DNA of 50,475 bases. It comes from a virus. The translations under genes were made by a program, and so were the position numbers. Positions 25,173 through 49,545 of the stretch are shown here, piece after piece. Numbering within the stretch: the first letter of the stretch is position 1; each line of letters begins with the position of its first letter. The stretch lies in IMG/VR virus record IMGVR_UViG_3300049791_000009, positions 1 through 50,475 of that record, one strand, 5' to 3'. The notes beneath the pieces were generated by a model, which was given only the letters and a program-made list of their open reading frames with translations, was not told the origin of the DNA and ran no database searches.

Positions 25173-25200
25173 AAGTCGAGCCCCTTAATTGGGGCTTTTC
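25171..25200. terminator. Terminator between the convergent operons
   Basis: The stem AGCCCC/GGGGCT (25179-25184 and 25191-25196), enclosing TTAATT, ends in TTTTCTTT on the + strand. On the - strand the same stem is followed by GACTTTT. It ends the late operon right after its last gene and may also stop leftward transcription. Confidence 0.85.
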
Positions 25201-25235
25201 TTTATCTAAAATTAATGCCGTCCTCTGGCATTGGC

Positions 25236-25448
25236 TTACTCCATGTCATACACATCTGACATAAGATTAAACTTGAACTGCTCTATAAGCATGAGGATCT
25301 CTGCCTTGTCCAAGCCTAGAGAGCCCCTTACATCAAGGTAACCTTCAGCGTCGTAGCCTAGAATGAGGACTTGAGCATAATGCCCTATAGCCTCTTTAAG
25401 GACTACATCAGGGTTCTGTGCTGGCACTAGATCAACTACGTCTCCCAC
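25236..25448 (-). CDS. Small conserved protein at the end of the leftward operon
   Basis: A 70-aa acidic protein starting at a GTG that overlaps the stop of the gene upstream (TAGTG). It has the pattern VLILGYDAEGYLDVRGSLGL, followed by a helix with DKAEILMLIEQFKFNL. This resembles small phage proteins of unknown function that lie near nucleotide metabolism genes. No catalytic motif was identified. Confidence 0.7.
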   Translation of the reverse strand: MGDVVDLVPAQNPDVVLKEAIGHYAQVLILGYDAEGYLDVRGSLGLDKAEILMLIEQFKFNLMSDVYDME

Positions 25449-34178: not shown

Positions 34179-34617
34179 TTATGTAGGCCCTCTCTGCCTC
34201 TTCTGGCGTATCAAACTGGCCTAACCTGACCCCACACAGGTTTGCCGTATATTTGCCAGTGTCTCGTCTCTTAGACACCCCCAAAATACCTAGTAAATTA
34301 TCTGCATGTGGTTTATGCAGGTTAAGGGCGTTCTCCTTTTTGTTACTCACTCGAAGGTTTTCAATCCTATTATCGGCCTTAACCCCATTGATGTGGTCGA
34401 GTAGTGGGGGCAACACTCCGTTGTGCATCAGCCAGATAAGCCTGTGTAGATAGTATCTCTTACCTAAGATAGATAGGGTCATATAGCCACGTACACCTAT
34501 TGTCCCTACCGCAACCCCGGCCTCCCATTGCTTATAAGCCTTACTCCTGAGCAGATTACCATCCGAGTATTGGTAGTTTTGTTTTAAGTAACCTATTAGT
34601 GATTCTTCTGATACCAT
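34141..34617 (-). CDS. HNH homing endonuclease interrupting the DNA polymerase gene
   Basis: A 158-aa homing enzyme with the HNH core PPLLDHINGVKADNRIENLR near residues 71-90 and a C-terminal AP2-like domain (LLGILGVSKRRDTGKY, then GVRLGQFDTPEEAERAY). The ORF overlaps the end of the N-terminal polymerase part by 22 bp and the start of the C-terminal part by 38 bp, in a different frame. It fills the whole insertion, leaving no room for a group I intron core. It is therefore best seen as a free-standing endonuclease gene that has split the polymerase. Confidence 0.93.
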   Translation of the reverse strand: MVSEESLIGYLKQNYQYSDGNLLRSKAYKQWEAGVAVGTIGVRGYMTLSILGKRYYLHRLIWLMHNGVLPPLLDHINGVKADNRIENLRVSNKKENALNLHKPHADNLLGILGVSKRRDTGKYTANLCGVRLGQFDTPEEAERAYINAKLAADERPTA

Positions 34618-35957: not shown

Positions 35958-36429
35958 GACGTTCTATAACCTCAGTCTTAAACCTCCAAATCACTTGCTT
36001 AATGGTCTTCACCTTAGCTGTAGTGATGTTGGCAATGTCCTTCGGACTATAGTGCTTCTCAAAGTAGAGGAGCAATATCTCTTGATGGTCTTCAATCTTC
36101 TCGTCAACAAGCTCATAAATCTTCTTTACTAGCTCGTCCTCCTTAAGTGGCATCTCTTGTGGGTCATAGAGTTCCTCATCAAACTCCTCCCCCATACCAA
36201 ATAACCACTCCTCCCGCTTAAAGTCCCGTAAAGCGTTCTTCATGATGGTGTTGAACCAAGCACCTAGCTCTTTTTGTGCTGGATTAAAAGTAGTTTGATA
36301 TACCAAAGCTCGAACGAAAGCCTCTTGTAACACATCTTCAGCAGCCTCGGGACTGCCCGCCCCATATGACAAACGACGTAGAAGTAAGTCCCTATTCTCT
36401 TTGTAAAACTCTCCCAGGATTTCATTCAC
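35947..36429 (-). CDS. ECF-like sigma factor
   Basis: A 160-aa protein with the two regions of group IV sigma factors. Sigma2 is SPEAAEDVLQEAFVRAL near residues 26-42 and GAWFNTIMKNALRDFKRE near 57-74. Sigma4 is ILLLYFEKHYSPKDIANI and KVKTIKQVIWRFK near 118-152, a helix-turn-helix. It would direct host RNA polymerase to phage promoters, as phiEco32 gp36 does. It overlaps the polymerase gene. A set of two-box elements upstream of leftward genes are its likely targets. Confidence 0.85.
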   Translation of the reverse strand: MNEILGEFYKENRDLLLRRLSYGAGSPEAAEDVLQEAFVRALVYQTTFNPAQKELGAWFNTIMKNALRDFKREEWLFGMGEEFDEELYDPQEMPLKEDELVKKIYELVDEKIEDHQEILLLYFEKHYSPKDIANITTAKVKTIKQVIWRFKTEVIERHGT

Positions 36430-36620
36430 TCTTGACTCCTCAGAATGGACTCTTCAAGCTCAACCAGCTCCATAAGGGCAGATACACCATAGGGGTCTTC
36501 ACAGAATTCACAAACCCCACGATGGTTAAGCTCTCCATATTGCATACACTCGGTACATTTCTCTTCTTTATCAATGGACTTCATGCTTTCTTTGAGTCTG
36601 GCGAACAGTTGCTTGTCCAT
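36426..36620 (-). CDS. Small Cys-pair protein (possible zinc finger)
   Basis: A 64-aa protein from ATG 36620 with GGGAG upstream. It has CTEC and CEFC pairs (about residues 22-25 and 37-40) that could bind zinc, between helical ends. It sits between primase-helicase and the sigma factor and overlaps both. A role in transcription or replication is possible but not shown. Confidence 0.65.
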   Translation of the reverse strand: MDKQLFARLKESMKSIDKEEKCTECMQYGELNHRGVCEFCEDPYGVSALMELVELEESILRSQE

Positions 36621-38338
36621 CACAGCTCCCTCTCTTCAAAGTGTGTCGAATTACGGTTCCACCATAGTGGGAAGTTCCCCACCTCACCGAACTCTCGGTC
36701 CTCTAACAACTCTAATTCACGCATATTACGTACGCCATCTTGTAAGAGGGCATCCTTATTACCCTTGAGTGCAAGCATATAATTACATGAACGCATCATG
36801 GCCCTAGACCCAGCGAATTGATTAGAAGACACATCCCCTCCAAGCTCGTGAGGGCAATTACCAAGGCCAATATATCGACCGTTCTCATACATCTTTAACC
36901 TCGCGTCTTTGCTGATGTTACCTTCGGGAGATTTCAAGTGGACAAAGATGAACACTACAATGTTCAAGTCAAGGGCCATAGCAGCCAATTCTTGTGCAAT
37001 TTCTTGCAGCTTGATATTAGCTAGCCCGCTCTCCATGCCATTTGTGAGGTTAGTAATCGGGTCTATGAAGACAACCTTAGCCCCCCAACCAGCAGCAGCA
37101 TAGATGTCCGCTTTAAGGGACTCCCATCCTAGGTGTTGATACAAGTTAACCATAGCTAACTTGCCTTTCAACACCTCTCCTGCTCTATCATAAGCGGCGA
37201 AGTCAAACTCGCGATCAGGGTCATGGAACACCTTGCCAACAATCTTACCGGCCATGAGCTTGTAAGTCTTCTTGTTAGCCTCCTCAGGCTTAGCCATGAA
37301 CACCTTGACACCATGTTCCTTAATGAAGTGAGCGCCCAACTCGTTCAGGAGTTCGGACTTTCCCATTTTAACACCAGCACCAACATAGATGGTTTCACCA
37401 TAACGTATGCCACGAGTCTTAGTGTTGATGTGCTCCCAAGGCCATGTCAACTCGCCATACTTAGCCACCTCACGAGCTGCTTCATGCAGCTCTTCGCCAA
37501 AGATTAGCTGGGTATTCTTCTTAACTTCATTCTTCCACTTAGCCGCTTGATAAGCGCCCTTGCCCTTCCCTTTGAGTATGCATTCGTTAGCGTCCTTGCA
37601 GGGCAAGCTGATGACAGTGGCTCCGGGGAATATCTTGCAACACTCCTCAGTAGCCTTATGGCCAGGTTCATCATCATCAAAGCAGAAGCTTACTTCCTTG
37701 AAATACTTCTTAATCTCTGGTGATAAGCGTGAAATATCTTTATGAGCAGATGCTGCACCATGAGGCAAGCTACATACAGCCGGAATAGTGTCCTTGTACT
37801 CAGCTTTCTCGTAGGTGTCGAAGATGACTTTGAGTGCAACAGCATCGAACTCACCCTCAGTGATGATAAGACGGCGTGCTCCGCTCGCCTTGGCCTGCTC
37901 CCAGCCAAAGAGGTCAACCTTAGATTGATCCCCCACTGACCAGAACTTCTTCCCCTCAATAAGTTTTACCTTATACGCCTGAAGGTTTCCTTTACTGCTG
38001 TAAGGGAAGTAAATAAACTTAAGTGTCTCACCATCAGCTTGGTCATAGCCAACCTTAATGCCGTAGTAGTCTAGGGCAACAGCCCTTAGGCGCCTATCTG
38101 GCAGGTCAACAACCTCACACTCACCAATCTCAGCTAACTCAGTCTCAATCTCCTCTCGTGACTTACTAAGGCGCTCAGCCTTGGGGATGTCACTCACCTT
38201 TTTATCACCTAGCGGTGATGCCACGTATGTGTTACAGCTAAAACAATAGCCTGTAATACTACCATCATCCTGCTCGTAGCATTGAAGGCCATTACGGGTG
38301 CCGCATGAATGGCCGGTCTTGACAAGGCACTGCCCCAA
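36620..38338 (-). CDS. Primase-helicase (T7 gp4-like)
   Basis: A 572-aa replicative protein starting at TTG with TTGGAGG 6 nt upstream. It has an N-terminal Cys-rich zinc-binding part (CGTRNGLQCYEQ and CFSC, residues 13-35), a TOPRIM domain (LIITEGEFDAVAL near 153), and a RecA-like hexameric helicase with Walker A VGAGVKMGKSE near 318 and Walker B VVFIDPIT near 420. It would unwind DNA and make primers for the phage polymerase. A copy of the two-box promoter element (38358-38391) lies just upstream. Confidence 0.93.
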   Translation of the reverse strand: MGQCLVKTGHSCGTRNGLQCYEQDDGSITGYCFSCNTYVASPLGDKKVSDIPKAERLSKSREEIETELAEIGECEVVDLPDRRLRAVALDYYGIKVGYDQADGETLKFIYFPYSSKGNLQAYKVKLIEGKKFWSVGDQSKVDLFGWEQAKASGARRLIITEGEFDAVALKVIFDTYEKAEYKDTIPAVCSLPHGAASAHKDISRLSPEIKKYFKEVSFCFDDDEPGHKATEECCKIFPGATVISLPCKDANECILKGKGKGAYQAAKWKNEVKKNTQLIFGEELHEAAREVAKYGELTWPWEHINTKTRGIRYGETIYVGAGVKMGKSELLNELGAHFIKEHGVKVFMAKPEEANKKTYKLMAGKIVGKVFHDPDREFDFAAYDRAGEVLKGKLAMVNLYQHLGWESLKADIYAAAGWGAKVVFIDPITNLTNGMESGLANIKLQEIAQELAAMALDLNIVVFIFVHLKSPEGNISKDARLKMYENGRYIGLGNCPHELGGDVSSNQFAGSRAMMRSCNYMLALKGNKDALLQDGVRNMRELELLEDREFGEVGNFPLWWNRNSTHFEEREL

Positions 38339-38357
38339 GGCTAACCTCCAAAATTAA

Positions 38358-38391
38358 TTTCTAGTGATTAATGTCGTCTCTAGCATCGCCC
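38358..38391 (-). promoter_or_regulatory. Two-box promoter-like element, copy P6
   Basis: On the - strand: box A GGGCGATGCTAGAG, 7 nt, then box B TAATCACTAGAAA, ending 20 bp before the primase-helicase start. It is the most diverged of six copies in box A, while box B keeps CACTAGAAA. Confidence 0.7.
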
Positions 38392-38442
38392 TATCAGGGC
38401 CACTTTCCAAACCCGTCCCTGGGCTTACTATACTGGTTAAAC

Positions 38443-39546
38443 TTAGAAAAGGTCTACATGAGCTGGTACAGGAGGTGCCACTCGGCACTGCTTTGGCTTA
38501 CCCAATAGAGCAGCAAGATCAATAGGAGGGGCATCAAGGCCGATGGCAACTGGCATTACTACTTTCTCCTCAGCCCCTACAAACTCTTTAGGGACGTTCT
38601 GAGCAGGGATGACTACATTACCATTGAGGTAGTCCTTAAAACGGCTTAGGTAGCCTTCTAGGGTGCTTCCTGACAGTCCTGGAGCTGTGTTTACCTCTAG
38701 TACGTAAGCTTTCTGCTCTTTATCGTTGAAGATTACGTCCACAGCACCAAATGCTAAGCCCAAAAGATTCACAGCTTTTACTGCTTGGACAATTACATCA
38801 GGAGGCACAACACCATCTTCGTTCCTAGCAAAGATGAAACCATTGTCGTGGTTACGAATCTTCCAGTTGATGTCATCGTCAGCTACATCCTTACGGCGTG
38901 CCTTACGCTGAATGTCAACAGCCTGCCCACCACATACATGGACTCGGTACTCTTGTTTCTTAGGGACATAGCGAACATACAAAGGGCACTTCTGTAGCCC
39001 CTCTTCACTGTCCGGCTCTACAAGACGTATGCCAGCACCACTATGGCCGTTCAAGATGTGGCGTTCTACGACAGTGAACCCCATGCCCAGCCATGCCCCA
39101 GCCCTCATTCTCTCTGTAGTGAACTCAGGAGTGCGGGCATGCCCAGCCTCTTGTGGGGCTGGCTCCTTAATAAGAACTTCCCCATATCGCCCACGATTAA
39201 TGATGCCAACGAAGTCGTCAGCTACTCCCTCAAATATCTCGTGGTCTGCTCGAAGATCATGGTGACCCTTTGCTGCATATACAGCACGAGTGGTGCGCTT
39301 CCCATCATTCAGCCGCCGGAAGGCCAGCAACTTATCGCTAGCTTGCTTAACAGCTTGTGGAAGATTGAGGATGGTGCATTTAGTCACTTCCTCAGGCAGC
39401 TTACTAGCGCCCCAGTTAATCACCAGCCTGTCCTTAGCTCCTTTGAAACGGCTAGCCTTGTGAGCTATGCGCTTCAAGCCAAGCCCCTCAGCCAGCGCCT
39501 TACAGGACTCAGAAGCTGACAGGTAAGGGTAGATAAACGCTTTCAT
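38443..39546 (-). CDS. ATP-grasp ligase of the amidoligase cluster
   Basis: A 367-aa ligase joining a carboxylate to an amine with ATP. The ATP-grasp fold is shown by the KEPAPQEAG region near residue 127, a metal-binding VDVIFNDKEQKAYVLEVNTAPGL stretch read here in two parts (VDVIFND near 270 and LEVNTAPGL near 283), and the loop-rich centre. A Pro-rich C-terminal tail follows. It is next to two amidoligases and two glutamine-handling enzymes, as in phiEco32-like phages, where the set is proposed to build or attach a peptide-like group. The substrate is unknown. Confidence 0.88.
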   Translation of the reverse strand: MKAFIYPYLSASESCKALAEGLGLKRIAHKASRFKGAKDRLVINWGASKLPEEVTKCTILNLPQAVKQASDKLLAFRRLNDGKRTTRAVYAAKGHHDLRADHEIFEGVADDFVGIINRGRYGEVLIKEPAPQEAGHARTPEFTTERMRAGAWLGMGFTVVERHILNGHSGAGIRLVEPDSEEGLQKCPLYVRYVPKKQEYRVHVCGGQAVDIQRKARRKDVADDDINWKIRNHDNGFIFARNEDGVVPPDVIVQAVKAVNLLGLAFGAVDVIFNDKEQKAYVLEVNTAPGLSGSTLEGYLSRFKDYLNGNVVIPAQNVPKEFVGAEEKVVMPVAIGLDAPPIDLAALLGKPKQCRVAPPVPAHVDLF

Positions 39547-40433
39547 TAGTAATCCTCCAGCGGCTCGTCAGGGAATTCTGTACCAATTGGGAACTCAAGT
39601 TCGCCAATGATTTTCTTCTCTACTTCATGGTAGTCAGCCCAGTCAACACAATAGGCCACATCTTGTGCTCGTCGCATGCCATCAATCAGCATGTCCTCCA
39701 AGTTTTCACACATGAATAGCTCAGAGTTCTCCCCAAGGGCGTTAATGAGGAACTCTTTAGCTCCCCCATAACTGAATCCTTCAATGATTTTATCAGGACT
39801 TGCATAAGTCTTAGCCACTTCACGCAGGTTGAGCAGCACCTCAGCCCATTTGTAGATTAGGTCAAGGTCACGAGTACCTCGCATAGCACGGAACTCAAGG
39901 CTACCATACGTCCCCAGAGCCTTCACATTCATCGAAGCATAGCGTAGCTGGTCACTCACTAGGTTGTTGAAGAACCTAGTCTCAGCGGACATTGTAAGCT
40001 GTCTCAGCAGGTAGTCTGCATCGCATGTACGGAGACAGAAGAGATTCCCCTCACGGTAAGGGCCACAGAACTTGACCAACACCTCCTCTAAGGTGATGTA
40101 TAGCACCATAAAGTTATACAACTCAATCATGTTCAATTTCTGGACGTTTATGTGTACGTGAACACCAGCTCGTACACTATCATACACCTCAGACTCATGT
40201 TCCTTGTACTGTGCGTCTAAGTACTTGAGGGCTAGGCGAGCCTCCTTGAGCAGCATTGGCTTGGCCAACACATACTCACGAGTCTCAGGACCACGTAGTG
40301 AGCCATCTTCCTCGTTCTTCCAGAACTTCTCACAATAGGGGAGGCGCTCACCCTCCACCTCAATCTCAATACCCACCTCACCATCAGTCTTGAACTTCTT
40401 AGGCAAGTTGAACCATTGCATCACCGTCTTCAT
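39546..40433 (-). CDS. COOH-NH2 amidoligase (glutamate-cysteine ligase-like), type 1
   Basis: A 295-aa enzyme of the GCS/GS-like amidoligase fold. Metal-binding Glu residues lie in [14 protein letters not shown] (about residues 19-32), followed by EEDGSLRG. A conserved [12 protein letters not shown] is near 108 and [12 protein letters not shown] near 192, the usual Arg for phosphate. It overlaps the ATP-grasp gene by 1 bp. The expected reaction is formation of an amide bond between an amino acid-like acid and an amine; the acceptor is not known. Confidence 0.88.
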
Positions 40434-40975
40434 AGCGACTCCTTCAACGCCTCAGTTAGGTACATATAGCGGCTAGTCAGCACTGGTATGCCGTTCTCAA
40501 CAATCCCTACAGGACGCTCACCACCCTTATGGAGCAGCTGCCCATGGGCGTCTATAGCCCAGTGACGGTGCCATGCTACAGACTTAGTCTTCTTTACAAT
40601 TACAAGAGCATCAGTGAACTTGGGGAACTCGTTCAAGATAGTCTTGCGGAGGGCCTCATAGGGAATACGATCAGCGCTGACTGCACCTTGGGAGATGAAG
40701 TTGCCCCTCCGTAGCCCTTGGCGCCAGTCACGGCGCATTGGAACGCGGGAGATATAACAGGCATGTTTGTTAAAGTTGCAATAGCCCAAAGGGACTGGAT
40801 GCAAGTCCAGCTCATCAGCTTGACAAGTTACAGTCTCCTCATCATCAAGGCGGTGACAGGTTACAACCATGCCACGAGTCACCTTATGAATGTATACAGG
40901 CTCCCCTTTGAGCCGGACAATGGTGTCAACTAAGCGACTATGAGCGTAGTCATAGTCATCACCATACATACTCAT
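40430..40975 (-). CDS. Conserved unknown of the amidoligase cluster
   Basis: A 181-aa protein from ATG 40975 ([15 protein letters not shown]); the frame is open 15 codons further but that overlaps the gene upstream. The N-terminal half ([18 protein letters not shown]) looks like a small beta-barrel. Similar proteins occur in other podoviruses; none known to me has a proven function. Placement inside the cluster, with overlaps on both sides, suggests it works with the ligases, perhaps as substrate, carrier or internal virion partner. Confidence 0.7.
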
Positions 40976-40977
40976 GA

Positions 40978-41847
40978 TTATGCTACCTGTGCAATTGGAC
41001 GGAAGCCTTGATGGCTCCATTGAGTCCTAACAAAACCAGGGGGAGTTTCGACACCATGTATGTCCATAAGCTGCCGGATAGTGCCAAGATTAGGCTTCTT
41101 CTCGGCCATAAGACGCTTCACCAAAGCAACATGCTGGTGGAAGGCAGCCTTGCCCTCAAACAAGTCATTGATGGCCTTAGTGGTGGTACGATATACCCAC
41201 GCCATAAGCTCTTCAGACTGCAACCAAGCGTTGCTTAGAACACGGTACTCAACCCCATAAGGCTTAGGACGAAACGCCCCAGCAGCACCATACATAGTGC
41301 GGCGCTTAGTGTCAGCATCGTACACCAAAGACCCAAGACCAAGATAATAATCCAACTGCTTTGTTGCCATAATACAAGCTTCCATATGGCCGGGGTCATT
41401 AATATCAACATCATTAGTCCAACCAATATGTACATGACCTGCTCCAGTACGGAAGTTAACATCACCATTAGGGCGAGGGTTAGCTTGTCCCCCATTCCAT
41501 GCACAGAAGTCAGGCTCACAGCCCAGCTCCAATGCTTCCTTAGGTTGCTTAGCCATGATGGCCTTAGTGAAGGACGCCACAGGAGTGGCTACCAGCTCAT
41601 AGTTAGGCACCATGCCAGCCATGATCTTCATGACACCAGTGATGTTTTCTACGAACTCACGCTCATTCTTAGCTGGATCAATATTGAATTCAAGGGCCAT
41701 GCCGTCTACTTGGACAGCACCTTGATGAACTTTATGGGGGTTTTTCTTGTCGCCTTGGACAAGACCATGTGCCGATTGAAGTTGTTTCTGACCAATCTTA
41801 CGAACAAAAACCTCAGGATCGGCACCTACGAGAATGTTCAAGCTCAT
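40978..41847 (-). CDS. phiEco32-like COOH-NH2 ligase, type 2
   Basis: A 289-aa amidoligase. The diagnostic motifs are VGADPEVFVRK (residues 7-17), GMALEFNIDPA near 49, GAGHVHIGWTND near 132 and GVEYRVLSNAWL near 198. This is the family named after phage phiEco32. With the type 1 enzyme it makes two distinct amide-forming activities in one operon. It follows the class II amidotransferase by 11 bp, with GAGGTAACATC before the ATG. Confidence 0.9.
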   Translation of the reverse strand: MSLNILVGADPEVFVRKIGQKQLQSAHGLVQGDKKNPHKVHQGAVQVDGMALEFNIDPAKNEREFVENITGVMKIMAGMVPNYELVATPVASFTKAIMAKQPKEALELGCEPDFCAWNGGQANPRPNGDVNFRTGAGHVHIGWTNDVDINDPGHMEACIMATKQLDYYLGLGSLVYDADTKRRTMYGAAGAFRPKPYGVEYRVLSNAWLQSEELMAWVYRTTTKAINDLFEGKAAFHQHVALVKRLMAEKKPNLGTIRQLMDIHGVETPPGFVRTQWSHQGFRPIAQVA

Positions 41848-41858
41848 GATGTTACCTC

Positions 41859-43214
41859 TTAGTGTTTAACTGTGCCAAGGCTAACAGCCTTAACAATAAA
41901 ATCCTTCACAACTGGGAGATCCTTACAGTCTCCACAGATGAAGTTAGCTTTGTCCAACCAGATGAGGTCTTCACTTTCCTCAATGGTTGGGATGGTTTTA
42001 CAGTTGCCACAGCCACAATTCACAAGAGCTTCATAGTCTTCTTCAGAGACAATCTGACCACCAAACACTACAGCCTGCTCTGTGTCATCTTCCTCGCTAA
42101 TATCAATGGTCTTAGTCTCCTCAATACTACGAGGATCTAGTGTGCACCATGTATCGTTCCCTACAGTAGCGAAGCCACGAATTCTGCCCTTAAAGAAGAA
42201 GACAGAGTTCATCATCCATTGAATCACCGCCGGATCAGCAGTGTACAGACGCAGTTCAATGTTGCAGTTATCTTGTGTAGGGCAGCATGACACCCACTGT
42301 TGACCAGTGTTGTCACTAGTCGCGAGGGACGAGACGAAGAACTCGACTTCCCCCTGATTGATGAGGTCTGCTGGGGTAATTTTTTTTTGATTGGTCGAGG
42401 GCTTTCCCACAACACTCTCTCTCGCCTTGTCAAAGACAGAGTTGTTAGCTACAGACTTACCATTCCCACCAGAATTTGTGTGGGTAGGGCTGCCCTGCTT
42501 TACGACAGTTTTCCATTTGTGTAGCTCAAGCTCTCGTACCTTAACTTCTTTGAAAGCTTTAGGGGCATAAGTTAGCTCAATTGGGTAGGAATACAGCTCT
42601 CCAGGCTTAGGCTCATATAAGTCACGGTGCTTGATACCGGCCAGCTTTAATGTAACTTCCAACATCCAAGGCTCAGATGCCCAGAACACTGTGCGCTTAT
42701 CTTCAGACTCAGCCAGCCACAAAGGACGTTCATCATTGCGGATGAAGTTCATTGTCTCTTGTTCAGAGTCATACCATGTAAGGGCAAATGCCCCACAAGT
42801 GTTCTTGATAGTCTCATCTACACCAACCTTAGCAATTGAGTAGAAGATGTTGTCGCTATCAACCTCGAACTCTTTGTGGTCAATCAGCAACTGCTGACTA
42901 CGTAGAGTGCCATTGTGAGCGCCAATGATGTGGTCATGTTCAAATGGGTGAGCGTTACGAGTATTAATCTTACCCTTCGTAGCCCAGCGGTTATGCCCCA
43001 TAAGCACACAAAGGCTTCCGTGCATTACGCTATCAAACGACTTCAGATCGTATAGATTCCAGGGGGTCCCGACAGTCTTTGCAATGTCCGTAAGGCCAGC
43101 TTGGTTCACTGACATAACACCAGTGGAGTGTGGGCCCCTGATGGTATCAATCTCCAACAAACGCTTGAAGACAGCCTCTTCTTTTTGGCTAATATAGCCC
43201 GCACAACCAACCAT
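41859..43214 (-). CDS. Class II glutamine amidotransferase
   Basis: A 451-aa protein with an N-terminal Ntn-type glutaminase domain: RGPHSTGVM near residues 26-34, MGHNRWATKG near 72-81 and GAHNGTL near 98, as in GlmS/PurF. The nucleophile Cys is expected at position 2 after Met; here the N-terminus is MVGCAGYI, so Cys is residue 4 and the start has no alternative codon directly before it. The C-terminal 200 residues are unknown, with CGCGNC and CGDC, probably a zinc site. It could supply ammonia to the ligases. A copy of the two-box element is 42 bp upstream. Confidence 0.88.
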   Translation of the reverse strand: MVGCAGYISQKEEAVFKRLLEIDTIRGPHSTGVMSVNQAGLTDIAKTVGTPWNLYDLKSFDSVMHGSLCVLMGHNRWATKGKINTRNAHPFEHDHIIGAHNGTLRSQQLLIDHKEFEVDSDNIFYSIAKVGVDETIKNTCGAFALTWYDSEQETMNFIRNDERPLWLAESEDKRTVFWASEPWMLEVTLKLAGIKHRDLYEPKPGELYSYPIELTYAPKAFKEVKVRELELHKWKTVVKQGSPTHTNSGGNGKSVANNSVFDKARESVVGKPSTNQKKITPADLINQGEVEFFVSSLATSDNTGQQWVSCCPTQDNCNIELRLYTADPAVIQWMMNSVFFFKGRIRGFATVGNDTWCTLDPRSIEETKTIDISEEDDTEQAVVFGGQIVSEEDYEALVNCGCGNCKTIPTIEESEDLIWLDKANFICGDCKDLPVVKDFIVKAVSLGTVKH

Positions 43215-43255
43215 TCCGCAGATGATGCTACCCTCCAGCCCATTGGCTAAATTAT

Positions 43256-43290
43256 TTTCTAAGGTTTATTCAGAGCTTGAGTATTTGCTT
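43256..43290 (-). promoter_or_regulatory. Two-box promoter-like element, copy P1
   Basis: On the - strand: box A AAGCAAATACTCAAG, 7 nt, box B TAAACCTTAGAAA. It lies in the 91-bp spacer before the class II amidotransferase gene, ending 42 bp from its start. Confidence 0.8.
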
Positions 43291-43305
43291 ACAGCGGCTA
43301 TATGC

Positions 43306-43932
43306 TTACGCACGGAGCCCGTGACAGCGTTCAATCAGCTCGAAGTAGTATTGAAAACACTCGTGCTCAGGGCCAAAAAATTCGGGGTGTGGCTGGTAAC
43401 ACAGAGCTTTAGTGTCCGCATAGTACACTGCCTCAGTGTCAGGTTCCTCGCCGTCAGTATTGGACTTACACTCAAAAGTTTCTCGCCGGCTAGCCTCATT
43501 AGCGTATGCCAGGATTTCCCCAGACCTACTAGCAATCATCATCTGGTGGTGTGTAGAGCTAACAACCACCTCTCGCTCAGTCCGTATGTCATATAGCGTA
43601 TGATTATGTCCTGTAGCGTGCCCATCAACATGCTGGTACATCTTGCCGCCAGACATGACATTAAGGAACTGGCCACCACGACATATGCCAGCCATAGGTA
43701 TGCCCATGCGCTTAGCAGTGGCAAAGTAGCCAGCCTCATATAAGTCACGCTCGAATGAGTTCCCAGTGTATGGGTGTTTCCCCTCACCATATAGAGCCGG
43801 AGTAACGTCCTCACCACCAGTGAATTGAATTAGGTCAGCCTTAAGCGGGCCTTTAGCTAGCTCCCATCCAGCATTAAGGAACATCTGGCCATAGTTCTGA
43901 CCATTACCCCCTACAATATAAACCTTAGGCAT
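43306..43932 (-). CDS. C26-type peptidase / class I amidotransferase-like protein
   Basis: A 208-aa protein with the catalytic triad of gamma-glutamyl hydrolase and class I glutamine amidotransferases: Cys in MAGICRGGQFLN near residue 83, His and Glu in YQPHPEFFG near 188-194. In C26 enzymes this cleaves gamma-glutamyl amide bonds. In this cluster it may edit or release the product of the ligases, or supply ammonia. It overlaps the previous gene by 8 bp and ends before promoter element P1. Confidence 0.87.
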   Translation of the reverse strand: MPKVYIVGGNGQNYGQMFLNAGWELAKGPLKADLIQFTGGEDVTPALYGEGKHPYTGNSFERDLYEAGYFATAKRMGIPMAGICRGGQFLNVMSGGKMYQHVDGHATGHNHTLYDIRTEREVVVSSTHHQMMIASRSGEILAYANEASRRETFECKSNTDGEEPDTEAVYYADTKALCYQPHPEFFGPEHECFQYYFELIERCHGLRA

Positions 43933-44860
43933 AAATCTTCTCCATTAGGTGGTCTTTAGCCCATGTTGCCATCACTTCAATAGCCTTGGCGTAGGTTGTG
44001 CTGCTATCATCATCCACCTTCTTAGCAGCTAAGAATGGATTAAGGCTAGGAGAGGCAGCTTGCTCTTTGTACAAGTGCTTAGGGAAGTTCTCCCTGATGT
44101 AATGGTAAACACTACCCCCAATATGCTCCCCATACATGTAATCGTAGCCAGTGTAGTTACCACCTTCAGAGTAGTTGGAGTTAAGGTTCTTTGGAGTGTG
44201 GTCAAGGAACCTACGTAAGTTCTCCCAACCAAATGCTGCTGGGTTTATAGAACAATGACCAGACTGACAGTTATCCCAAGAGGCGCTGTCATCTGCACTG
44301 GCATTATTCTTAGTGCGCATTAGGTGTCCTAGATAGAAGGCTAAGTCTTCATTAACCCCCTGCCTAGCTAAGTCATAGGCTGCCTGAGCTACAAAGACAT
44401 ACTCCCAAAGGCGCCTGAGAGCCACTAGGCCAGCTCCTACGAGGTTACCTGGATGGTCACCACTGACTACAGTCACACGTCCCGCCAGTGCCTTCTCAGC
44501 GTCCTTCTCGATGAAGATTTGACTATAGGGAGAGCGATTAAGTATGTAGTCAACAAACCATAGCTCAATTTCAGGGCGCAATACACGGCCAGGGTTAGTG
44601 CCATAGGCAGTGCCAATCATAAGCCCGTTGATAATAACCTTCACATTATGACGGCCTCGAAGGCTAGCATGGCATACATGGTTATCCACTCCCCCAACCC
44701 TCCCATCTTTGTCAATGAACAGACAACCAGCGTTCTGTTTCCACCTAACTCCTTCGAGGAAAGCTGCCTTAGCTCTTACTATCACCTCAGAAAAGTCTAC
44801 AACCTTTTCAACCAGTTCTTCAGTCATTTTCTCGGCGGCTAGTCGTTGTGAGAAAGCCAT
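43925..44860 (-). CDS. Conserved unknown of the modification cluster (311 aa)
   Basis: The start at ATG 44860 is chosen because GGAGGTG lies directly upstream and the ATG overlaps the previous stop (TGATGG). The first 40 residues are helical. The middle (KVIINGLMIGTAYGTNPGRVLRPEIE) and the Gly/Tyr-rich GGNYTGYDYMYGEHIGG region near 250 have no family that I recognise. It is translationally coupled to the C26 peptidase gene, so it is likely part of the same pathway. Confidence 0.72.
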   Translation of the reverse strand: MAFSQRLAAEKMTEELVEKVVDFSEVIVRAKAAFLEGVRWKQNAGCLFIDKDGRVGGVDNHVCHASLRGRHNVKVIINGLMIGTAYGTNPGRVLRPEIELWFVDYILNRSPYSQIFIEKDAEKALAGRVTVVSGDHPGNLVGAGLVALRRLWEYVFVAQAAYDLARQGVNEDLAFYLGHLMRTKNNASADDSASWDNCQSGHCSINPAAFGWENLRRFLDHTPKNLNSNYSEGGNYTGYDYMYGEHIGGSVYHYIRENFPKHLYKEQAASPSLNPFLAAKKVDDDSSTTYAKAIEVMATWAKDHLMEKIYA

Positions 44861-45033
44861 CAGAGCACCTCCACTATATGCCCAGTTATCCAAGCCCCAT
44901 TAAAGCCTAGGTTCATAGCGTCAAAGTTAGCCACCCGTACAGCGTTCTCAGCGTCAGTTGCATACACAACAAACGAGCGCTCAACATATGGGGCTATGAA
45001 CTTGACCGTCACCTTGTATTGCCTATGCTTCAT
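44860..45033 (-). CDS. Small conserved protein before the modification cluster
   Basis: A 57-aa protein (starts MKHRQYKVTVKFIAPYVE) with a beta-alpha-beta look, like the small YATDAENAVRVA-type proteins common in phages. Coupled at both ends (ATGA and TGATGG). Unknown function. Confidence 0.7.
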   Translation of the reverse strand: MKHRQYKVTVKFIAPYVERSFVVYATDAENAVRVANFDAMNLGFNGAWITGHIVEVL

Positions 45034-45233
45034 GACAGCTTACTCGCTGGTGACCAATACACGGGGAAGAAAACAGCTAACGACCACACAACATGGCGAT
45101 CCACTAAGCTCCAGTCCCCAAGGTACATTAGGTACGCCAGCACTTTCCCATCCACAGCATCAGTAGTTCCCGGCAAGCGCTCTCTGGAGTCTATAGGACG
45201 GTGTTTAATACGTTTGATGCGGTAGTTGGCCAT
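45030..45233 (-). CDS. Small basic protein, early region
   Basis: A 67-aa protein with a basic N-terminus (MANYRIKRIKHRPIDSRERL) and a hydrophobic C-terminal half (YLGDWSLVDRHVVWSLAVFF). TAGGAGC precedes the ATG. Overlaps the next gene by 4 bp. No family recognised; a single membrane segment is possible. Confidence 0.6.
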   Translation of the reverse strand: MANYRIKRIKHRPIDSRERLPGTTDAVDGKVLAYLMYLGDWSLVDRHVVWSLAVFFPVYWSPASKLS

Positions 45234-45299
45234 ACAATGCTCCTATAAGCTCCTGTGAGCTCGTCTAAGAGGTTTTAGATATACAGGCTAGGCCAGTGC

Positions 45300-45614
45300 C
45301 TAGGTCTGATGAGTTAAGAGCTTAGGCGAGCTTAGAGACGCCATTAGGTCTGTGAAGCCAAACTCGCCGGGGATGTGTTTCTTACGCAAAGCTGACTCAT
45401 TCCAGAGAGCAGGTCCCTTGTGGACGCCATGGGGGATTGGCTCATCAGCCCCTTCTAACCTATATGTGACGTCAGTAACCCTGTACGGGAAACTATCAAC
45501 CACTATATGACCTGGAGGAATCCACACAGCACTCACTGTATACTCGCCATTACGCTCAGGGAGTTCTACGCTTTGAAGAACAACCACTTCACCTACGCTA
45601 AACTTAGGTTGCAT
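45300..45614 (-). CDS. Early protein under promoter element P2
   Basis: A 104-aa protein. The second ATG (45614) is preferred because TGGTGACTCC gives it a ribosome binding site; the first ATG at 45626 is only 6 bp from box B. The first half (KFSVGEVVVLQSVELPERNG) looks like a small SH3-like barrel of the kind used in nucleic acid or protein contacts. No known function. Confidence 0.65.
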   Translation of the reverse strand: MQPKFSVGEVVVLQSVELPERNGEYTVSAVWIPPGHIVVDSFPYRVTDVTYRLEGADEPIPHGVHKGPALWNESALRKKHIPGEFGFTDLMASLSSPKLLTHQT

Positions 45615-45631
45615 TGGAGTCACCAAAAGTT

Positions 45632-45666
45632 TTTCTAATGTTAATCTGAGTGGCTAGTATTTGCTT
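45632..45666 (-). promoter_or_regulatory. Two-box promoter-like element, copy P2
   Basis: On the - strand: box A AAGCAAATACTAGCC, 7 nt, box B TTAACATTAGAAA, ending 18 bp before ATG 45614. One of the two best copies. Confidence 0.85.
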
Positions 45667-45931
45667 ACGCCCCTACATAGACCAGTTCCGTTGGGCCAAA
45701 CAAAAATGGACTTGCCCGTTCCTGCTCTTTCTGGAACTTGTAGAACGCTGTAGGAGTGGACATAAATCCGGCTCTGAACTCCTTACAGTTCCGGTAGACA
45801 GTAGCCTCTAGGGGGCTGTCAATACGCTCAAAGTCCAGATTATCTAACCCTTCACGGCCATACCGCCACTCTCCGTCCACGCTTTCATAACGCACAATGA
45901 ACGGGTAACGCACTCTTTTCATTCTTTTCAT
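45665..45931 (-). CDS. Small basic early protein
   Basis: An 88-aa protein starting MKRMKRVRYPFIVRYESVDG, with AGGTG 8 nt before the ATG (a second ATG three codons on is possible). Basic N-terminus, mixed alpha/beta body, no motif recognised. Its 3' end touches box A of element P2. Confidence 0.65.
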   Translation of the reverse strand: MKRMKRVRYPFIVRYESVDGEWRYGREGLDNLDFERIDSPLEATVYRNCKEFRAGFMSTPTAFYKFQKEQERASPFLFGPTELVYVGA

Positions 45932-46155
45932 CTTATTTACACCTCAGTTGTAGACTTTCCTCTCAGATATAAGTATATACTAGTAAAAACTGTATAGTAC
46001 TAGAGAGTCATAATAGTGAGTGAAACGAACATTATCTTGATTAAGAAACATATAAGAATATAAAGCATATAAGAGTATATAAAAGATTACGCGTTTAGGA
46101 ACTTGTCGTCGAAGACGACGTTTAGCAGTATACTAGAAGTACCTAATGCAAATTG
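45932..46155. promoter_or_regulatory. AT-rich spacer with direct repeats and a hairpin
   Basis: A 224-bp gene-free stretch. It contains two near copies of CATATAAGA-TATA (46048-46086), a hairpin GTCGTC-GAA-GACGAC (46105-46119), and AGTATATACTAG-type motifs that also occur in the 9349-9516 spacer. The AT-rich repeats could serve as a promoter cluster or a DNA-unwinding element of an origin. No ORF of note. Confidence 0.45.
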
Positions 46156-46290
46156 TTAAGCGTACTTACGACGATAGTAGTCAGCCTGTCCTAGCGCTTC
46201 ATTCTTTGTTTCAGCGGTTGATAGGAGCTTCCCATTGCACATAACCCACCAGCATATCCTGGCTGGGCTCCTTACTACTTCAAAGTTCAT
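46156..46290 (-). CDS. Small early protein
   Basis: A 44-aa protein (starts MNFEVVRSPARICWWVMCNG, ends YYRRKYA) with two Cys and a basic end, overlapped by the next gene upstream. It looks like the small beta-beta-alpha proteins seen in many phages, with a TAETKNEALGQAD helix. Unknown function. Confidence 0.6.
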   Translation of the reverse strand: MNFEVVRSPARICWWVMCNGKLLSTAETKNEALGQADYYRRKYA

Positions 46291-46372
46291 AGTCGTCAAA
46301 CCATAGAGAGCAAGTGAGTACAATGGTCACTAACAGGACCACACCGACTAGAAAGAGCTGTAAGTTATTCAT
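46280..46372 (-). CDS. Tiny single-span membrane protein, early region
   Basis: A 30-aa ORF with one membrane helix (LFLVGVVLLVTIVLTCSLW) and an acidic end (FDDYEL). Overlaps both neighbours by a few bases. Unknown function. Confidence 0.5.
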   Translation of the reverse strand: MNNLQLFLVGVVLLVTIVLTCSLWFDDYEL

Positions 46373-46569
46373 TGCGTAAGTTCCTTAGGAGCTTGTTCTA
46401 ACCAGCGTTCCATGAATGTTGGCGTGGTTACCCGTTTGATGGCATGAGTACATACATACTTACCACCTATAGAGCGCTGTATGCTCGTGTAGAGCCCGTG
46501 ACCAGCTAACTGGTACTGGAGGCACACGGCATTGATTACAGAGCTACAAGCGTAGCTAGGCTTACTCAT
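46369..46569 (-). CDS. Small Cys-containing early protein
   Basis: A 66-aa protein from ATG 46569 (MSKPSYACSSVINAVC); the longer frame upstream overlaps the neighbour. Three Cys, helical, basic C-terminal half. No known family. Confidence 0.6.
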   Translation of the reverse strand: MSKPSYACSSVINAVCLQYQLAGHGLYTSIQRSIGGKYVCTHAIKRVTTPTFMERWLEQAPKELTQ

Positions 46570-46780
46570 GTAGCACCTCAACATTATCAGACCACACAAT
46601 ACCAGCTGCCTCAAACTCAAGTAGCAGGTCATTGAGACAATCAATTCGTACAGACAACATAAGGGCCAACTCTGAGCCCTTTGCTTGTTTATTGAGCGCC
46701 AAGTTAGCTATAGCTCGTTGCTGTAGTAGGATGGTATGCACTTGGCATAAGTCACTATGTACCTCAGACATGACGCTCAT
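46562..46780 (-). CDS. Small helical early protein
   Basis: A 72-aa protein with GGAG 8 nt before the ATG. It is all-helical with heptad-like Leu spacing (LALMLSVRIDCLNDLLLEFEAAG). Unknown function. Confidence 0.62.
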   Translation of the reverse strand: MSVMSEVHSDLCQVHTILLQQRAIANLALNKQAKGSELALMLSVRIDCLNDLLLEFEAAGIVWSDNVEVLHE

Positions 46781-46795
46781 GGCAATAACTCCTAG

Positions 46796-46912
46796 TTAGT
46801 TAGTTCCTACCCGTTGACCGTTCCGTTGACGCTGTTCACGACGTTGACGCTCATAACGGTTGCCCTTGCAAGCTTTGCGGTTTGCTTCTTGACGGGCGGC
46901 TTTATGGTTCAT
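46796..46912 (-). CDS. Tiny Arg/Gln-rich basic protein
   Basis: A 38-aa ORF (starts MNHKAARQEANRKACKGN) with about 13 basic residues, GGGAG 8 nt before the ATG and promoter element P3 33 bp upstream, which argues for real expression. Probably a nucleic acid or host protein binder; function unknown. Confidence 0.65.
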   Translation of the reverse strand: MNHKAARQEANRKACKGNRYERQRREQRQRNGQRVGTN

Positions 46913-46944
46913 GGTGTATCTCCCACTTGGTTTATCGAAAATAG

Positions 46945-46979
46945 TTTCTAGTGTTAACGTGAGCGGCTAGCATTTGCTT
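46945..46979 (-). promoter_or_regulatory. Two-box promoter-like element, copy P3
   Basis: On the - strand: box A AAGCAAATGCTAGCC, 7 nt, box B TTAACACTAGAAA. Together with P2 this defines the consensus. It ends 33 bp before the 38-aa gene. Confidence 0.85.
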
Positions 46980-46989
46980 AGCCCTGGCC

Positions 46990-47133
46990 TTACAGGTTCT
47001 TCACGAAGTCAGAAGCTGGATAGCCTGGCACTTCATCAGACCATGTACGGTGATACTCGATAGTCTTAGTTACCTTTGGATTAAATGCACGATACATACC
47101 TTGAACAGCGAACATCAATGCAAAGATAGCCAT
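46990..47133 (-). CDS. Small early protein with hydrophobic start
   Basis: A 47-aa protein (starts MAIFALMFAVQGMYRAFNP) with GGGAGGTG before its ATG, one of the best ribosome binding sites in the region. The first 14 residues are hydrophobic; the rest is polar. Unknown function. Confidence 0.6.
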   Translation of the reverse strand: MAIFALMFAVQGMYRAFNPKVTKTIEYHRTWSDEVPGYPASDFVKNL

Positions 47134-47134
47134 G

Positions 47135-47200
47135 TCACACCTCCCACGCACAATAAGCAAGCACACCAAAGATTACAGCGGACAAGATGATAAAAGTCAT
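47135..47200 (-). CDS. Tiny membrane peptide (21 aa)
   Basis: A 21-aa ORF that is almost entirely one membrane helix (FIILSAVIFGVLAYCAW). It ends 2 bp before the next start and starts inside the end of the gene upstream. Its size makes it uncertain. Confidence 0.35.
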   Translation of the reverse strand: MTFIILSAVIFGVLAYCAWEV

Positions 47201-47430
47201 ATCGTTAACCCCTGATCGAATACACATTTATTGAACATAGCTTCAATTTGTTTAGAGTCTATGCCTGCTATGAGAGCAGCTATAGCGCATTGCTCAGCTA
47301 CAGCATTGTTATAGGCGCCCCACCTACCATCGTGTAGAGGTTGAGGTTGTGTGACGTTAGCGCACCCATGCATACATACAACGAAGAACATAGCGCTCGA
47401 CATATACATAACATTGAATGCAAGTTTCAT
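47197..47430 (-). CDS. Putative secreted or lipoprotein-like early protein
   Basis: A 77-aa protein from ATG 47430, which overlaps the previous stop (TGATG). The N-terminus is a signal-peptide-like segment (MKLAFNVMYMSSAMFFVVCM) followed by HGC, close to but not matching a classical lipobox. The mature part has two more Cys that could form a disulphide. A role at the cell envelope, such as superinfection exclusion, is possible but unproven. Confidence 0.6.
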   Translation of the reverse strand: MKLAFNVMYMSSAMFFVVCMHGCANVTQPQPLHDGRWGAYNNAVAEQCAIAALIAGIDSKQIEAMFNKCVFDQGLTI

Positions 47431-47558
47431 CACACACCACCGTAGTCAATACGACAGTAGGGGCCATGATCACCAAAGCATAGGAAGGGCTCAAAGTCAT
47501 ATGCACGTTCAATGCAAATGAACAACACAAGCCCCTCAGTGTATACGGGAGTGATCAT
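47430..47558 (-). CDS. Small Cys-rich early protein
   Basis: A 42-aa protein (starts MITPVYTEGLVLFICIERAY) with three Cys and acidic character, coupled to the next gene by TGATG. Unknown function. Confidence 0.55.
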   Translation of the reverse strand: MITPVYTEGLVLFICIERAYDFEPFLCFGDHGPYCRIDYGGV

Positions 47559-47568
47559 GGCGTTAGTC

Positions 47569-47766
47569 CTATTTAAAACTAATCTTTACAACCGGCAGTA
47601 GGGTTGATCCATCTTCGCCACGCTCAACCCAGCTTATCTCTACACTGGATAAAATAGAGGCGTCTTGGTGGCGTAGGAAAGTGTCAGCCGTGCTAAGTAA
47701 CAAGGCTAGCTTATCCGTGCTTTTACTTTTAGACGGAGGGAGTACCGCCCCAACATCACTAGACAT
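47569..47766 (-). CDS. Small early protein
   Basis: A 65-aa protein with GAGGATAGG before its ATG. First half Ser/Lys-rich, second half beta-like (ILSSVEISWVERGEDG, ends PVVKISFK). No family recognised. Confidence 0.62.
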   Translation of the reverse strand: MSSDVGAVLPPSKSKSTDKLALLLSTADTFLRHQDASILSSVEISWVERGEDGSTLLPVVKISFK

Positions 47767-47802
47767 AGTCCTATCCTCGGTTGTTGAACTCTACGAGTTC
47801 AC

Positions 47803-48360
47803 TTATGCGGCGTCTGCCACGTCCTCAACAACTTCTTCTTCGCCTATGATAGCGTCGAAGTTACACAGCTTGAGTACAGCACGAATGGTTGCATCGTTCA
47901 CTTCAAACTTAACCTTTGCCTGATCTTCGGCAGTAAGGCCCACCACTTTGTCAGCAATGGCAGCGTGGTCTTTGATAACCTTCTGCAAGGCAGCTTCTAG
48001 GTCAAAGCCTTTGAATGGTGAGGCAGCTTTCAACTCCCACCACATGCCAGCTTTAGCCTTCTCGAAGTTAGTCTCGATGAACTCCTTGCCACTCCAGCCA
48101 ATGAAGCCAGTGTCGTCAACCTTGAGCCCACCATAGAGCTTGAACCACTCAACCAATGCTTTGCCATTGATAGTGTTACCAAGGGCTGTCACAAGCTTGC
48201 CAGCATAGGTCCAGTCACCATGATCGAAGGCATGTTTGATGGTGGCTACAGCTGCCACCTGTACGCTTACACGAGCGCTGTGAATAGACTTAACAGCGGA
48301 CGCATGAATCTTTTCCAAGCCAGCTGCGTCTTTAGCAAATATGTATTTAATGGCTTTCAT
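47803..48360 (-). CDS. Early protein of 185 aa under promoter element P4
   Basis: The largest gene of the early block. TTGGAG lies before the ATG and element P4 ends 21 bp upstream. It is Ala/Lys-rich and helical, with an acidic tail (IGEEEVVEDVADAA). Similar phage early proteins of this type are known only as conserved unknowns. Strong expression is suggested by its good promoter and ribosome binding site and by codon choice. Confidence 0.75.
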   Translation of the reverse strand: MKAIKYIFAKDAAGLEKIHASAVKSIHSARVSVQVAAVATIKHAFDHGDWTYAGKLVTALGNTINGKALVEWFKLYGGLKVDDTGFIGWSGKEFIETNFEKAKAGMWWELKAASPFKGFDLEAALQKVIKDHAAIADKVVGLTAEDQAKVKFEVNDATIRAVLKLCNFDAIIGEEEVVEDVADAA

Positions 48361-48381
48361 GTCGGTAACTCCAAAAGTTAA

Positions 48382-48415
48382 TTTCTAGTGTGAACTAGGT
48401 TGGTCAGCATTGCTT
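48382..48415 (-). promoter_or_regulatory. Two-box promoter-like element, copy P4
   Basis: On the - strand: box A AAGCAATGCTGACC, 7 nt, box B TTCACACTAGAAA, followed by an AT-rich stretch, GGAG and the 185-aa gene. Confidence 0.85.
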
Positions 48416-48491
48416 ATCTTGAGAAGAGCCAGAAGCCATACCAAAAGAGTAGTAAGGCAGCAATACGCTCTATGTACCATAGGCTATCCAT
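48414..48491 (-). CDS. Tiny membrane peptide (25 aa)
   Basis: A 25-aa ORF with one hydrophobic helix (IAALLLFWYGFWLF), starting inside the end of the 73-aa gene upstream and ending at box A of element P4. Real expression is possible but unproven. Confidence 0.4.
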   Translation of the reverse strand: MDSLWYIERIAALLLFWYGFWLFSR

Positions 48492-48705
48492 TAGCTGTGA
48501 TGCCCTTACCAGTTGGCTTATACCACTCTTTCAAGTTAGAACGACCAACACGATACACCTTGTCGTTCATTTTCTTGAGGGCCTTACGTGCCTCTACAGT
48601 GTTCTCTGACTTGAGTGTCAGCACCCGCTGCTCTCGCATTACAAGCCTAGAGGCTTTGGGCCTTGAGTCAGTTAGGTTGATGCGTGGTTTCTTTAGGAAG
48701 CTCAT
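48484..48705 (-). CDS. Small basic early protein
   Basis: A 73-aa protein from ATG 48705 (MSFLKKPRINLTDSRPKAS); about a quarter of residues are Lys or Arg. It may bind nucleic acid. Overlaps its downstream neighbour. Unknown function. Confidence 0.62.
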   Translation of the reverse strand: MSFLKKPRINLTDSRPKASRLVMREQRVLTLKSENTVEARKALKKMNDKVYRVGRSNLKEWYKPTGKGITANG

Positions 48706-48706
48706 G

Positions 48707-48880
48707 TTAGTAGCCCGCCCATTCACGCAGTGCTTGAAAATCAGTGAACGGCACTACTTTGTTTGTTACTACGTTGTTGGTGTCAACATTGATCACATAG
48801 TCAATCACATACACCGTGTTGCCGTTGCTGTGACTGTACCAATCATGAAGGGACGCCCATTTGATTTGTTGGTTGTTCAT
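48707..48880 (-). CDS. Small early protein behind a structured leader
   Basis: A 57-aa protein (starts MNNQQIKWASLHDWYSHSNG) with GGGAG 7 nt before its ATG. The 19-bp stem at 48896-48976 ends 15 nt before the start codon, so its translation may be controlled by RNA structure or by processing of the leader. Function unknown. Confidence 0.68.
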   Translation of the reverse strand: MNNQQIKWASLHDWYSHSNGNTVYVIDYVINVDTNNVVTNKVVPFTDFQALREWAGY

Positions 48881-49345
48881 GTTTGTTCTCCCGTTGGTTT
48901 ACTTAAGCTATCTGCTAGTCACGTTGGCGTAACACTACGCTACTATGAATTGAGCTACAGATAGCTTAAGTAAACCTTTCGGTTTACTCCCAGGACCAAC
49001 ACAACGTGTGTTGACGACTGAGGTCAGTAGCTCTCTAGATCACCAGCTTGTCAGGCTGTCTCACTAGTCGGCATTATGGGCAATGACAGGCCCCGTGCTT
49101 AACTACCCCAAGCAATCGATATGGGGCTACCTTCTTCGCTGGTAGCATAGCGGGCTGGTCTACAATCCATCAGCGCGGACTACTTAGCTTTCTCGGGCTA
49201 GACTACACACATTTAAGGTTCGCCTTGGCCGTACACTTTACTTTGTAGCGCCCCCTAGTGGGACATACAGTTGGCTAGAATCAGCTGAGCCCGTTTGCTC
49301 GTTGTTTGTTTCAGTGAGGCTATTAGAACATGGCTCGGTGTAGCT
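48881..49345 (-). other. Structured leader or non-coding RNA region
   Basis: A stretch of about 460 nt downstream of element P5 with no ORF of note. It contains a series of inverted repeats: a 19-bp stem (48896-48976), a competing 8-bp GAAA hairpin, a 7-bp palindromic hairpin (48997-49013), two adjacent hairpins CCCCA/TGGGG (49106-49126) and GCTACC/GGTAGC (49126-49146), and AAGG-CGAA-CCTT near 49213. The density of stems suggests a structured leader or a stable phage RNA. No match to a tRNA or known riboswitch was seen. Confidence 0.55.
48896..48988 (-). repeat. Perfect 19-bp stem with competing GAAA hairpin
   Basis: Arms 48896-48914 and 48958-48976 are perfectly complementary over 19 bp, with a 43-nt loop that holds a further stem (GCGTA/TACGC, 48927-48940). 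The 8-mer AGTAAACC/GGTTTACT occurs a third time (48981-48988), so in the leftward RNA the segment at 48969-48976 can pair either in the long stem or in a hairpin with a GAAA loop. The two forms exclude each other in part. Confidence 0.85.
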
Positions 49346-49357
49346 TGTCAAACTTAT

Positions 49358-49391
49358 TTTCTACTGTGAACCTGGCTTGCTGGTATTGCAT
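49358..49391 (-). promoter_or_regulatory. Two-box promoter-like element, copy P5
   Basis: On the - strand: box A ATGCAATACCAGCA, 7 nt, box B TTCACAGTAGAAA. It is the only copy without a gene right behind it: it would drive the structured region and the 57-aa gene beyond. Confidence 0.78.
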
Positions 49392-49545
49392 TGCGCTAGA
49401 GCCAGTGCTCCAGCTACGCCGGCAGGAAATCCCTCACTAGGCGAACCTAGATGAAGCCCTTGCTAGCTAAGCCCTCGATCCAAGATCTTGTTAGCTTTAG
49501 TAAGAGCCTTCAATATACCGAAGACGCTTAGTAAAGTCAACAACT
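49392..49545 (-). other. Gene-poor spacer before element P5
   Basis: About 150 bp between the 65-aa gene and P5. It contains a hairpin CTAGG-TTCG-CCTAG (49438-49452 region). A possible 26-aa hydrophobic ORF (TTG at 49543, end 49463) has no ribosome binding site and is not supported. Nothing else was seen. Confidence 0.4.

Follow-up and report, generated by a model that had tools for sequence, protein, structure and literature searches.

How does a phage of the T7 supergroup control its transcription when it carries no RNA polymerase? VpV262, SIO1, CW02 and their relatives are such phages: their family reportedly encodes no RNA polymerase, and of transcription control in this group it has been stated only that it must differ (PMC9960094). 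We considered the question for IMG/VR virus record IMGVR_UViG_3300049791_000009, a stretch of 50,475 nucleotides (nt) that was analyzed over its full length and is called the window below. The window represents a 50-kb podovirus with a rightward cluster of structural genes, the late strand, and a leftward (−) cluster of replication genes, the early strand. Its closest named relative is Pseudomonas phage GP100 (Zobellviridae), followed by Paundecimvirus O4, PA11 and TC6. A preliminary description of the sequence had noted six copies of a two-box element and read them as a promoter family. Our analysis indicates that these sites are probably promoters at which host core RNA polymerase acts together with a phage-encoded sigma factor of 160 amino acids (aa), similar to the extracytoplasmic function (ECF) type, and that they serve early and middle genes.

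The six sites were found on the − strand at 38358, 43256, 45632, 46945, 48382 and 49358, exactly as described earlier, with a gap of 7 nt between the boxes in each. The consensus of box A is approximately GGAATGCTAG and that of box B is TTAACnCTAGAAA; the conserved block exceeds the two boxes, as box B extends into an AT-rich tail, AAATAATTT, giving about 43 nt in total. Using a 48-column weight matrix in a leave-one-out setting, we scored about 100,850 positions on both strands and found that the held-out site beat every non-site in all six rounds. The sites scored 44–54 bits and the best non-site 9.5 bits, while column-permuted control matrices peaked at 16.9 bits. Five sites lie close to leftward gene starts, as had been claimed, but the distance from the end of box B to the start codon is 17–41 nt and not 18–42 nt; the sixth, at 49358, precedes a non-coding stretch (48877–49304) that is indeed conserved and structured. 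The boxes had been described as unlike host −35 and −10 sequences, and pairs of TTGACA and TATAAT hexamers 16–18 nt apart are not present inside the motif, such promoters sitting outside it. The first copy lies some 1.1 kb inside the right end of the window, and together the copies span the early/middle cluster. The placement of all copies in the right 12 kb holds for the six strong ones, to which we add a decayed seventh copy at 25190–25237 (−; score 14.1); the late strand contains none.

The preliminary description had proposed a motif search in related genomes as a check, and we found the motif again in GP100, in Paundecimvirus, in Vibrio and oyster Zobellviridae and in IMG/VR contigs. A two-box family matrix, trained on 35 sites of close relatives and applied to 23 genomes or genome parts, gave 60 matches on the early strand, distributed over 17 of the 23, against 0 on the late strand. 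In the genomes outside the training set the corresponding numbers were 21 and 0, and a reversed-sequence control gave 12 positions across all genomes and both strands. Among the strong family matches the gap is either 7 nt (34 cases) or 8 nt (15 cases), so that the gap is constant within the window but not across the family; the isolated matches with a very short or very long gap reflect one box only. A template-free de novo search recovered the motif in the window, GP100, G001, G002, TC6, T2S2, Vibrio 1.253.O and G017, whereas on the late strand only the terminal repeat of Klyazma stood clearly above shuffles. When IMG/VR was scanned for exact matches to the motif as it occurs in the window, only one short contig resulted, the pattern being too strict.

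The proposed reader of the motif is encoded at 35947–36429 (−), between the genes for a primase-helicase and DNA polymerase, a location shared with the relatives. The 160-aa protein matches PHROG 1740 (sigma factor; 1e-22) and has sigma region 2 above the Pfam cut-off (Sigma70_r2, 44.7 bits). Its AlphaFold model (mean predicted local distance difference test score, pLDDT, 80) consists of two helical domains, and all leading Foldseek matches are ECF sigma factors aligned over both domains. The modeled region 4 superposes on sigma-E region 4 with −35 DNA (2h27, root-mean-square deviation 1.6) and the modeled region 2 matches sigma-E region 2 with its −10 (5or5). In the model the protein thus has the ECF composition of regions 2 and 4 only, within the usual length of about 160–200 aa; we call it ECF-like rather than ECF because region 4 misses the sequence-profile cut-off, though the fold agrees. 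The earlier proposal of an ECF-like sigma gene is upheld, and that of no polymerase agrees with a domain search of ten of the larger window proteins, in which no RNA polymerase domain was detected. All complete genomes with a clear motif copy also have the sigma gene. Because of this co-occurrence, the ECF sigma fold and the lack of a detected polymerase domain, we regard the phage sigma factor as the best candidate for the reader of the motif. SIO1 and VpV262 have neither a detectable sigma factor nor a clear motif copy. Two apparent negatives were dropped: in T5S1 the helicase and polymerase genes are cut by the record ends and the assembly probably lacks the sigma region, and G028, without a match to a narrow profile, gave a weak sigma match to a wider one.

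The surroundings of the sites are consistent with promoter function. A Shine–Dalgarno (SD) sequence directly follows the motif at 38358, 45632 and 48382, and likewise in GP100, TC6, PA11, G006 and T2S2. As the SD abuts box B, a transcript would need to start no more than a few bases past this box; any start further than about 6 nt downstream would lose the SD. At the end of the early cluster of TC6, a motif copy (21671), an SD, a 73-aa open reading frame (ORF) and a terminator make up a free-standing unit. PA11 and O4 have the promoter motif and terminator without the 73-aa gene, as does G001, and the counterpart in the window is the decayed copy at 25190, which lies at the convergent junction of the early and late clusters directly before an intrinsic terminator at about 25179–25196 and is syntenic with strong copies in G001 (7129), PA11 (20340), O4 (21958) and TC6 (21671). 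A gap of either 7 or 8 nt can be accommodated by a sigma factor whose two domains are placed separately, and it speaks against the rigid promoter of a single-subunit polymerase. Together with the family-wide conservation and the placement on the early strand only, these features support the original reading of the sites as a promoter family.

The individual copies, numbered from the right end, precede the following features on the − strand. Copy 1 (49345–49392; AATGCAATACCAGC-N7-GTTCACAGTAGAAAATAAG) is followed by a host sigma-70-like promoter (TTGACA-18-TCTAAT, 49322–49351) and the structured RNA region. Copy 2 (48369–48416) precedes a 185-aa gene at 47803–48360 (PHROG 1448), with 56 nt from the 5′ end of box A to the ATG, and copy 4 (45619–45666) an ORF starting at 45614 (PHROG 20478), for which this distance is 52 nt; in both the SD abuts the motif. 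Copy 3 (46932–46979), the closest to the consensus, precedes a small ORF with a start near 46912, and copy 5 (43243–43290) a glutamine amidotransferase gene (41859–43214) and amidoligase/ATP-grasp genes. Copy 6 (38345–38392), with the SD GGAGG directly 3′ of the motif, heads an operon of the primase-helicase (36620–38338, TTG start at 38338; PHROG 239, 2.4e-139), a 65-aa protein and the sigma factor. A second sigma-70-like promoter, TTGACT-17-TATATT, is seen in the sequence at 49512–49540 (−). In O4, PA11, TC6, GP100 and G002 the copy preceding the RNA is also adjoined by a sigma-70-like promoter, TTGACA with a −10-like hexamer 16–17 nt further on, and the window version is less clear than these counterparts. 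Since this promoter stands separately next to the RNA-preceding copy, the motif is not itself a sigma-70 promoter.

These arrangements suggest how the system might operate. Box A would be the −35 element, recognized by sigma region 4, and box B the −10 element, melted by sigma region 2, with transcription beginning in the AT-rich tail just past box B. Host sigma-70-like promoters near the right end would launch early transcription, and leftward reading would eventually reach the sigma gene; the new holoenzyme could then fire all six promoters and raise the expression of early and middle genes. As copy 6 heads the operon with the sigma gene, self-amplification is predicted: the copy would drive the helicase–sigma operon and close a positive feedback loop. 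The assignment of the sites to middle genes, made in the preliminary description, needs refining in this respect, as the copies cover the early/middle cluster and the first of them lies beside a host sigma-70-like promoter.

A similar picture could arise if a phage activator comparable to MotA of T4 or CII of lambda bound both boxes and the host sigma-70 RNA polymerase used AATAAT in the tail as its −10. The boxes do resemble direct repeats (AATGCTAG and AACGCTAG, 19 bp apart) with a common core CTAG, and AATAAT resembles TATAAT. However, the key base of such a −10 would sit in a column of low conservation (0.5 bit) flanked by strongly conserved ones, the boxes shift by 1 nt relative to each other, promoters resembling TTGACA/TATAAT stand separately right next to the motif, and a conserved phage activator was not identified; we consider middle promoters of this kind improbable. 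Nor do the sites seem to behave like operators, that is, binding sites of a phage or host repressor or activator, or of another DNA-binding protein, that overlap ordinary promoters without being promoters themselves. Conserved, spaced boxes upstream of genes would be expected of operators, and the copy at 49358 does adjoin a sigma-70-like promoter; yet no such promoter is found near most copies, the position is fixed relative to the SD, the orientation is strict (60 versus 0), and the TC6 unit runs from promoter through ORF to terminator, which makes this explanation very improbable.

The short and nearly fixed distance to the SD and start codon could also be taken as the mark of an element acting in the RNA, such as a ribosome binding enhancer or an RNase processing site transcribed within the mRNA. 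We find this scarcely credible, as the motif consists of two islands with a free spacer, some copies lead directly to a terminator or to a non-coding RNA, and the motif is unlike the clear SD-type leader of CVT22 and Klyazma. In these two phages the extended leader TTGGAGAATAAATAATG surrounds the start codon of many early-strand genes, far above shuffles, and may be a dedicated translation signal. We rejected the de novo motif of CVT22 and Klyazma as a version of the same promoter, it being this SD-like leader; with the start region masked, the de novo search found nothing clearly above shuffles in either.

Reading the sites as promoters of the phage sigma factor also has points to its disadvantage. 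Region 4 stays under the Pfam cut-off (Sigma70_r4_2, 13.9 versus 25.7 bits), the conserved tail past box B is longer than a −10 needs, and the matrix matches in close relatives are in-sample. CVT22, Klyazma and CW02 have a sigma factor but no clear motif copy by the family matrix (for CVT22 and Klyazma, also by the de novo search), so the sigma gene and the motif appear to lack a one-to-one match at the search sensitivity used; the absence of the motif from SIO1 and VpV262 is weak evidence, both being distant. We could not demonstrate that region 4 covaries with box A, and we make no such claim because the motif classes do not split cleanly by sigma relatedness: the sigma factor of G014 is 31% identical and its motif is nearly that of the window. 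What the sequences show directly is the sites, with their strand, position and conservation across the family, and the sigma gene with its predicted fold; promoter activity, sigma dependence, start sites and timing are inferred from these.

The window encodes a sigma-70 family protein and carries a repeated promoter-like motif upstream of genes, distinct from sigma-70 promoters, and the set appears to belong to the known class of phage sigma factors with promoters of their own, represented by phiEco32 and 7-11, with its restriction to the early/middle strand, as opposed to the late one, as the difference. Bacterial ECF sigma factors such as sigma-E, AlgU and SigW use promoters of the type GGAAC/TCTAA, and GGAAT and CTAGAAA in the motif recall these elements just as the protein recalls the two-domain sigma fold; here, in contrast, the factor is phage-borne with region 4 below the Pfam cut-off, the spacing is longer and an anti-sigma factor was not identified. 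In Salmonella phage 7-11 the sigma factor SaPh711_gp47 reads experimentally proven late promoters of the form GTAAtg-(16)-aCTA (PMC8948821). Phage 7-11 is likewise a podovirus in which host RNA polymerase works with a phage sigma factor containing region 4, as proposed here, and GTAAtg/aCTA resembles GGAATG ... CTAG; its spacing is, however, 2–3 nt shorter than the distance between GGAATG and the CTA in box B, a further point against our interpretation. Its promoters serve late genes, whereas the motif described here is longer, has an AT-rich tail and occurs only on the early/middle strand; as no genome has a late-strand copy, we do not file it as a late promoter set of the 7-11 type. In phiEco32, adjacent to Zobellviridae on the tree in PMC9960094, middle and late promoters (tAATGTAtA) are read by phi32_gp36 (PMC8948821). 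There, as we propose here, a phage sigma factor redirects host RNA polymerase, but the promoter has a single element, because that sigma factor lacks region 4, whereas two elements and a region 4 fold are found here. Repeated promoters in a podovirus of the T7 supergroup also recall the T7 type, from which the window differs in that no polymerase domain was found in the ten proteins searched and in the box spacing of the family, which varies, unlike that of a rigid single-subunit promoter.

The region downstream of copy 1 (48877–49304, −) is a conserved structured non-coding RNA of about 420 nt that ends in a 19-bp hairpin (48896–48976). It is present also in G001, G002 and GP100, a covariance model adds O4, PA11 and TC6 (E ~4e-9), and profile and covariance models together detect it in GP100, O4, PA11 and TC6; in each relative it sits behind a promoter copy or a weaker relic of one. 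The close relatives share the core GGCGAACCTTRAATGTGTGTAGTC. In an alignment of four sequences 30 of the 88 predicted pairs show double-sided compensatory changes, and the stem of the long terminal hairpin covaries. When a single sequence is folded by minimum free energy, the gain over shuffles is only slight (z −1.6), and we regard covariation as the stronger evidence for structure. No Rfam family matches the region, and a distant blastn search of phage records returned nothing. A gene-specific riboswitch is disfavored because the following gene differs from phage to phage; a trans-acting role is one possibility. Within 48896–48990 (−) a hairpin GTAAACC-GAAA-GGTTTAC overlaps the 19-bp hairpin ending CAGATAGCTTAAGTAAACC, and since GGTTTAC can pair with either neighbor, it may form a structural switch.

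In three Vibrio phages two ORFs that overlap by ATGA take the place of a single sigma gene, one of 85 aa with region 2 and the other of 101 aa with region 4. The split is conserved, with synonymous changes, in all three genomes (521E56-1, L055 25734–26293; 1.264.O, L084 2385–2944; PS32B-4, L085 469–1028), and 521E56-1 and PS32B-4 retain a strong copy of the promoter motif. We put forward only tentatively, as doubtful at present, a combined idea. In at least two Zobellviridae lineages a large (~420 nt) structured RNA of a new class, acting in trans, would be driven from the first promoter of the sigma regulon, which has a host sigma-70-like promoter at its side; in a Vibrio lineage the reader of the same two-box promoter would be a sigma factor whose regions 2 and 4 naturally occur as separate proteins.

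Two other features of the window were recorded. A second conserved element, TGTAGnCTTTTCTCTCAAAAAAGAGTATAGTATATACTA, lies upstream of the scaffold gene at about 9342–9382 (+) in the window and in close relatives, with another copy at 45946–45985 (+), within the early region and pointing in the late direction; it is a candidate late promoter or other signal. The DNA polymerase gene (33615–35957, −) is apparently interrupted by an HNH-type endonuclease ORF (34141–34617).

A promoter set for Zobellviridae was not found in the literature searched, subscription papers such as the CW02 description lying outside that search, and the TC6 and Klyazma papers make no mention of promoters. Transcription control of the VpV262/SIO1/CW02 group has not been worked out, and the consensus, the candidate reader and the predicted start now make the question testable in the available Pseudomonas phages O4, PA11 and TC6; the regulon also draws attention to a structured RNA not described before and to a sigma factor that is split by nature.

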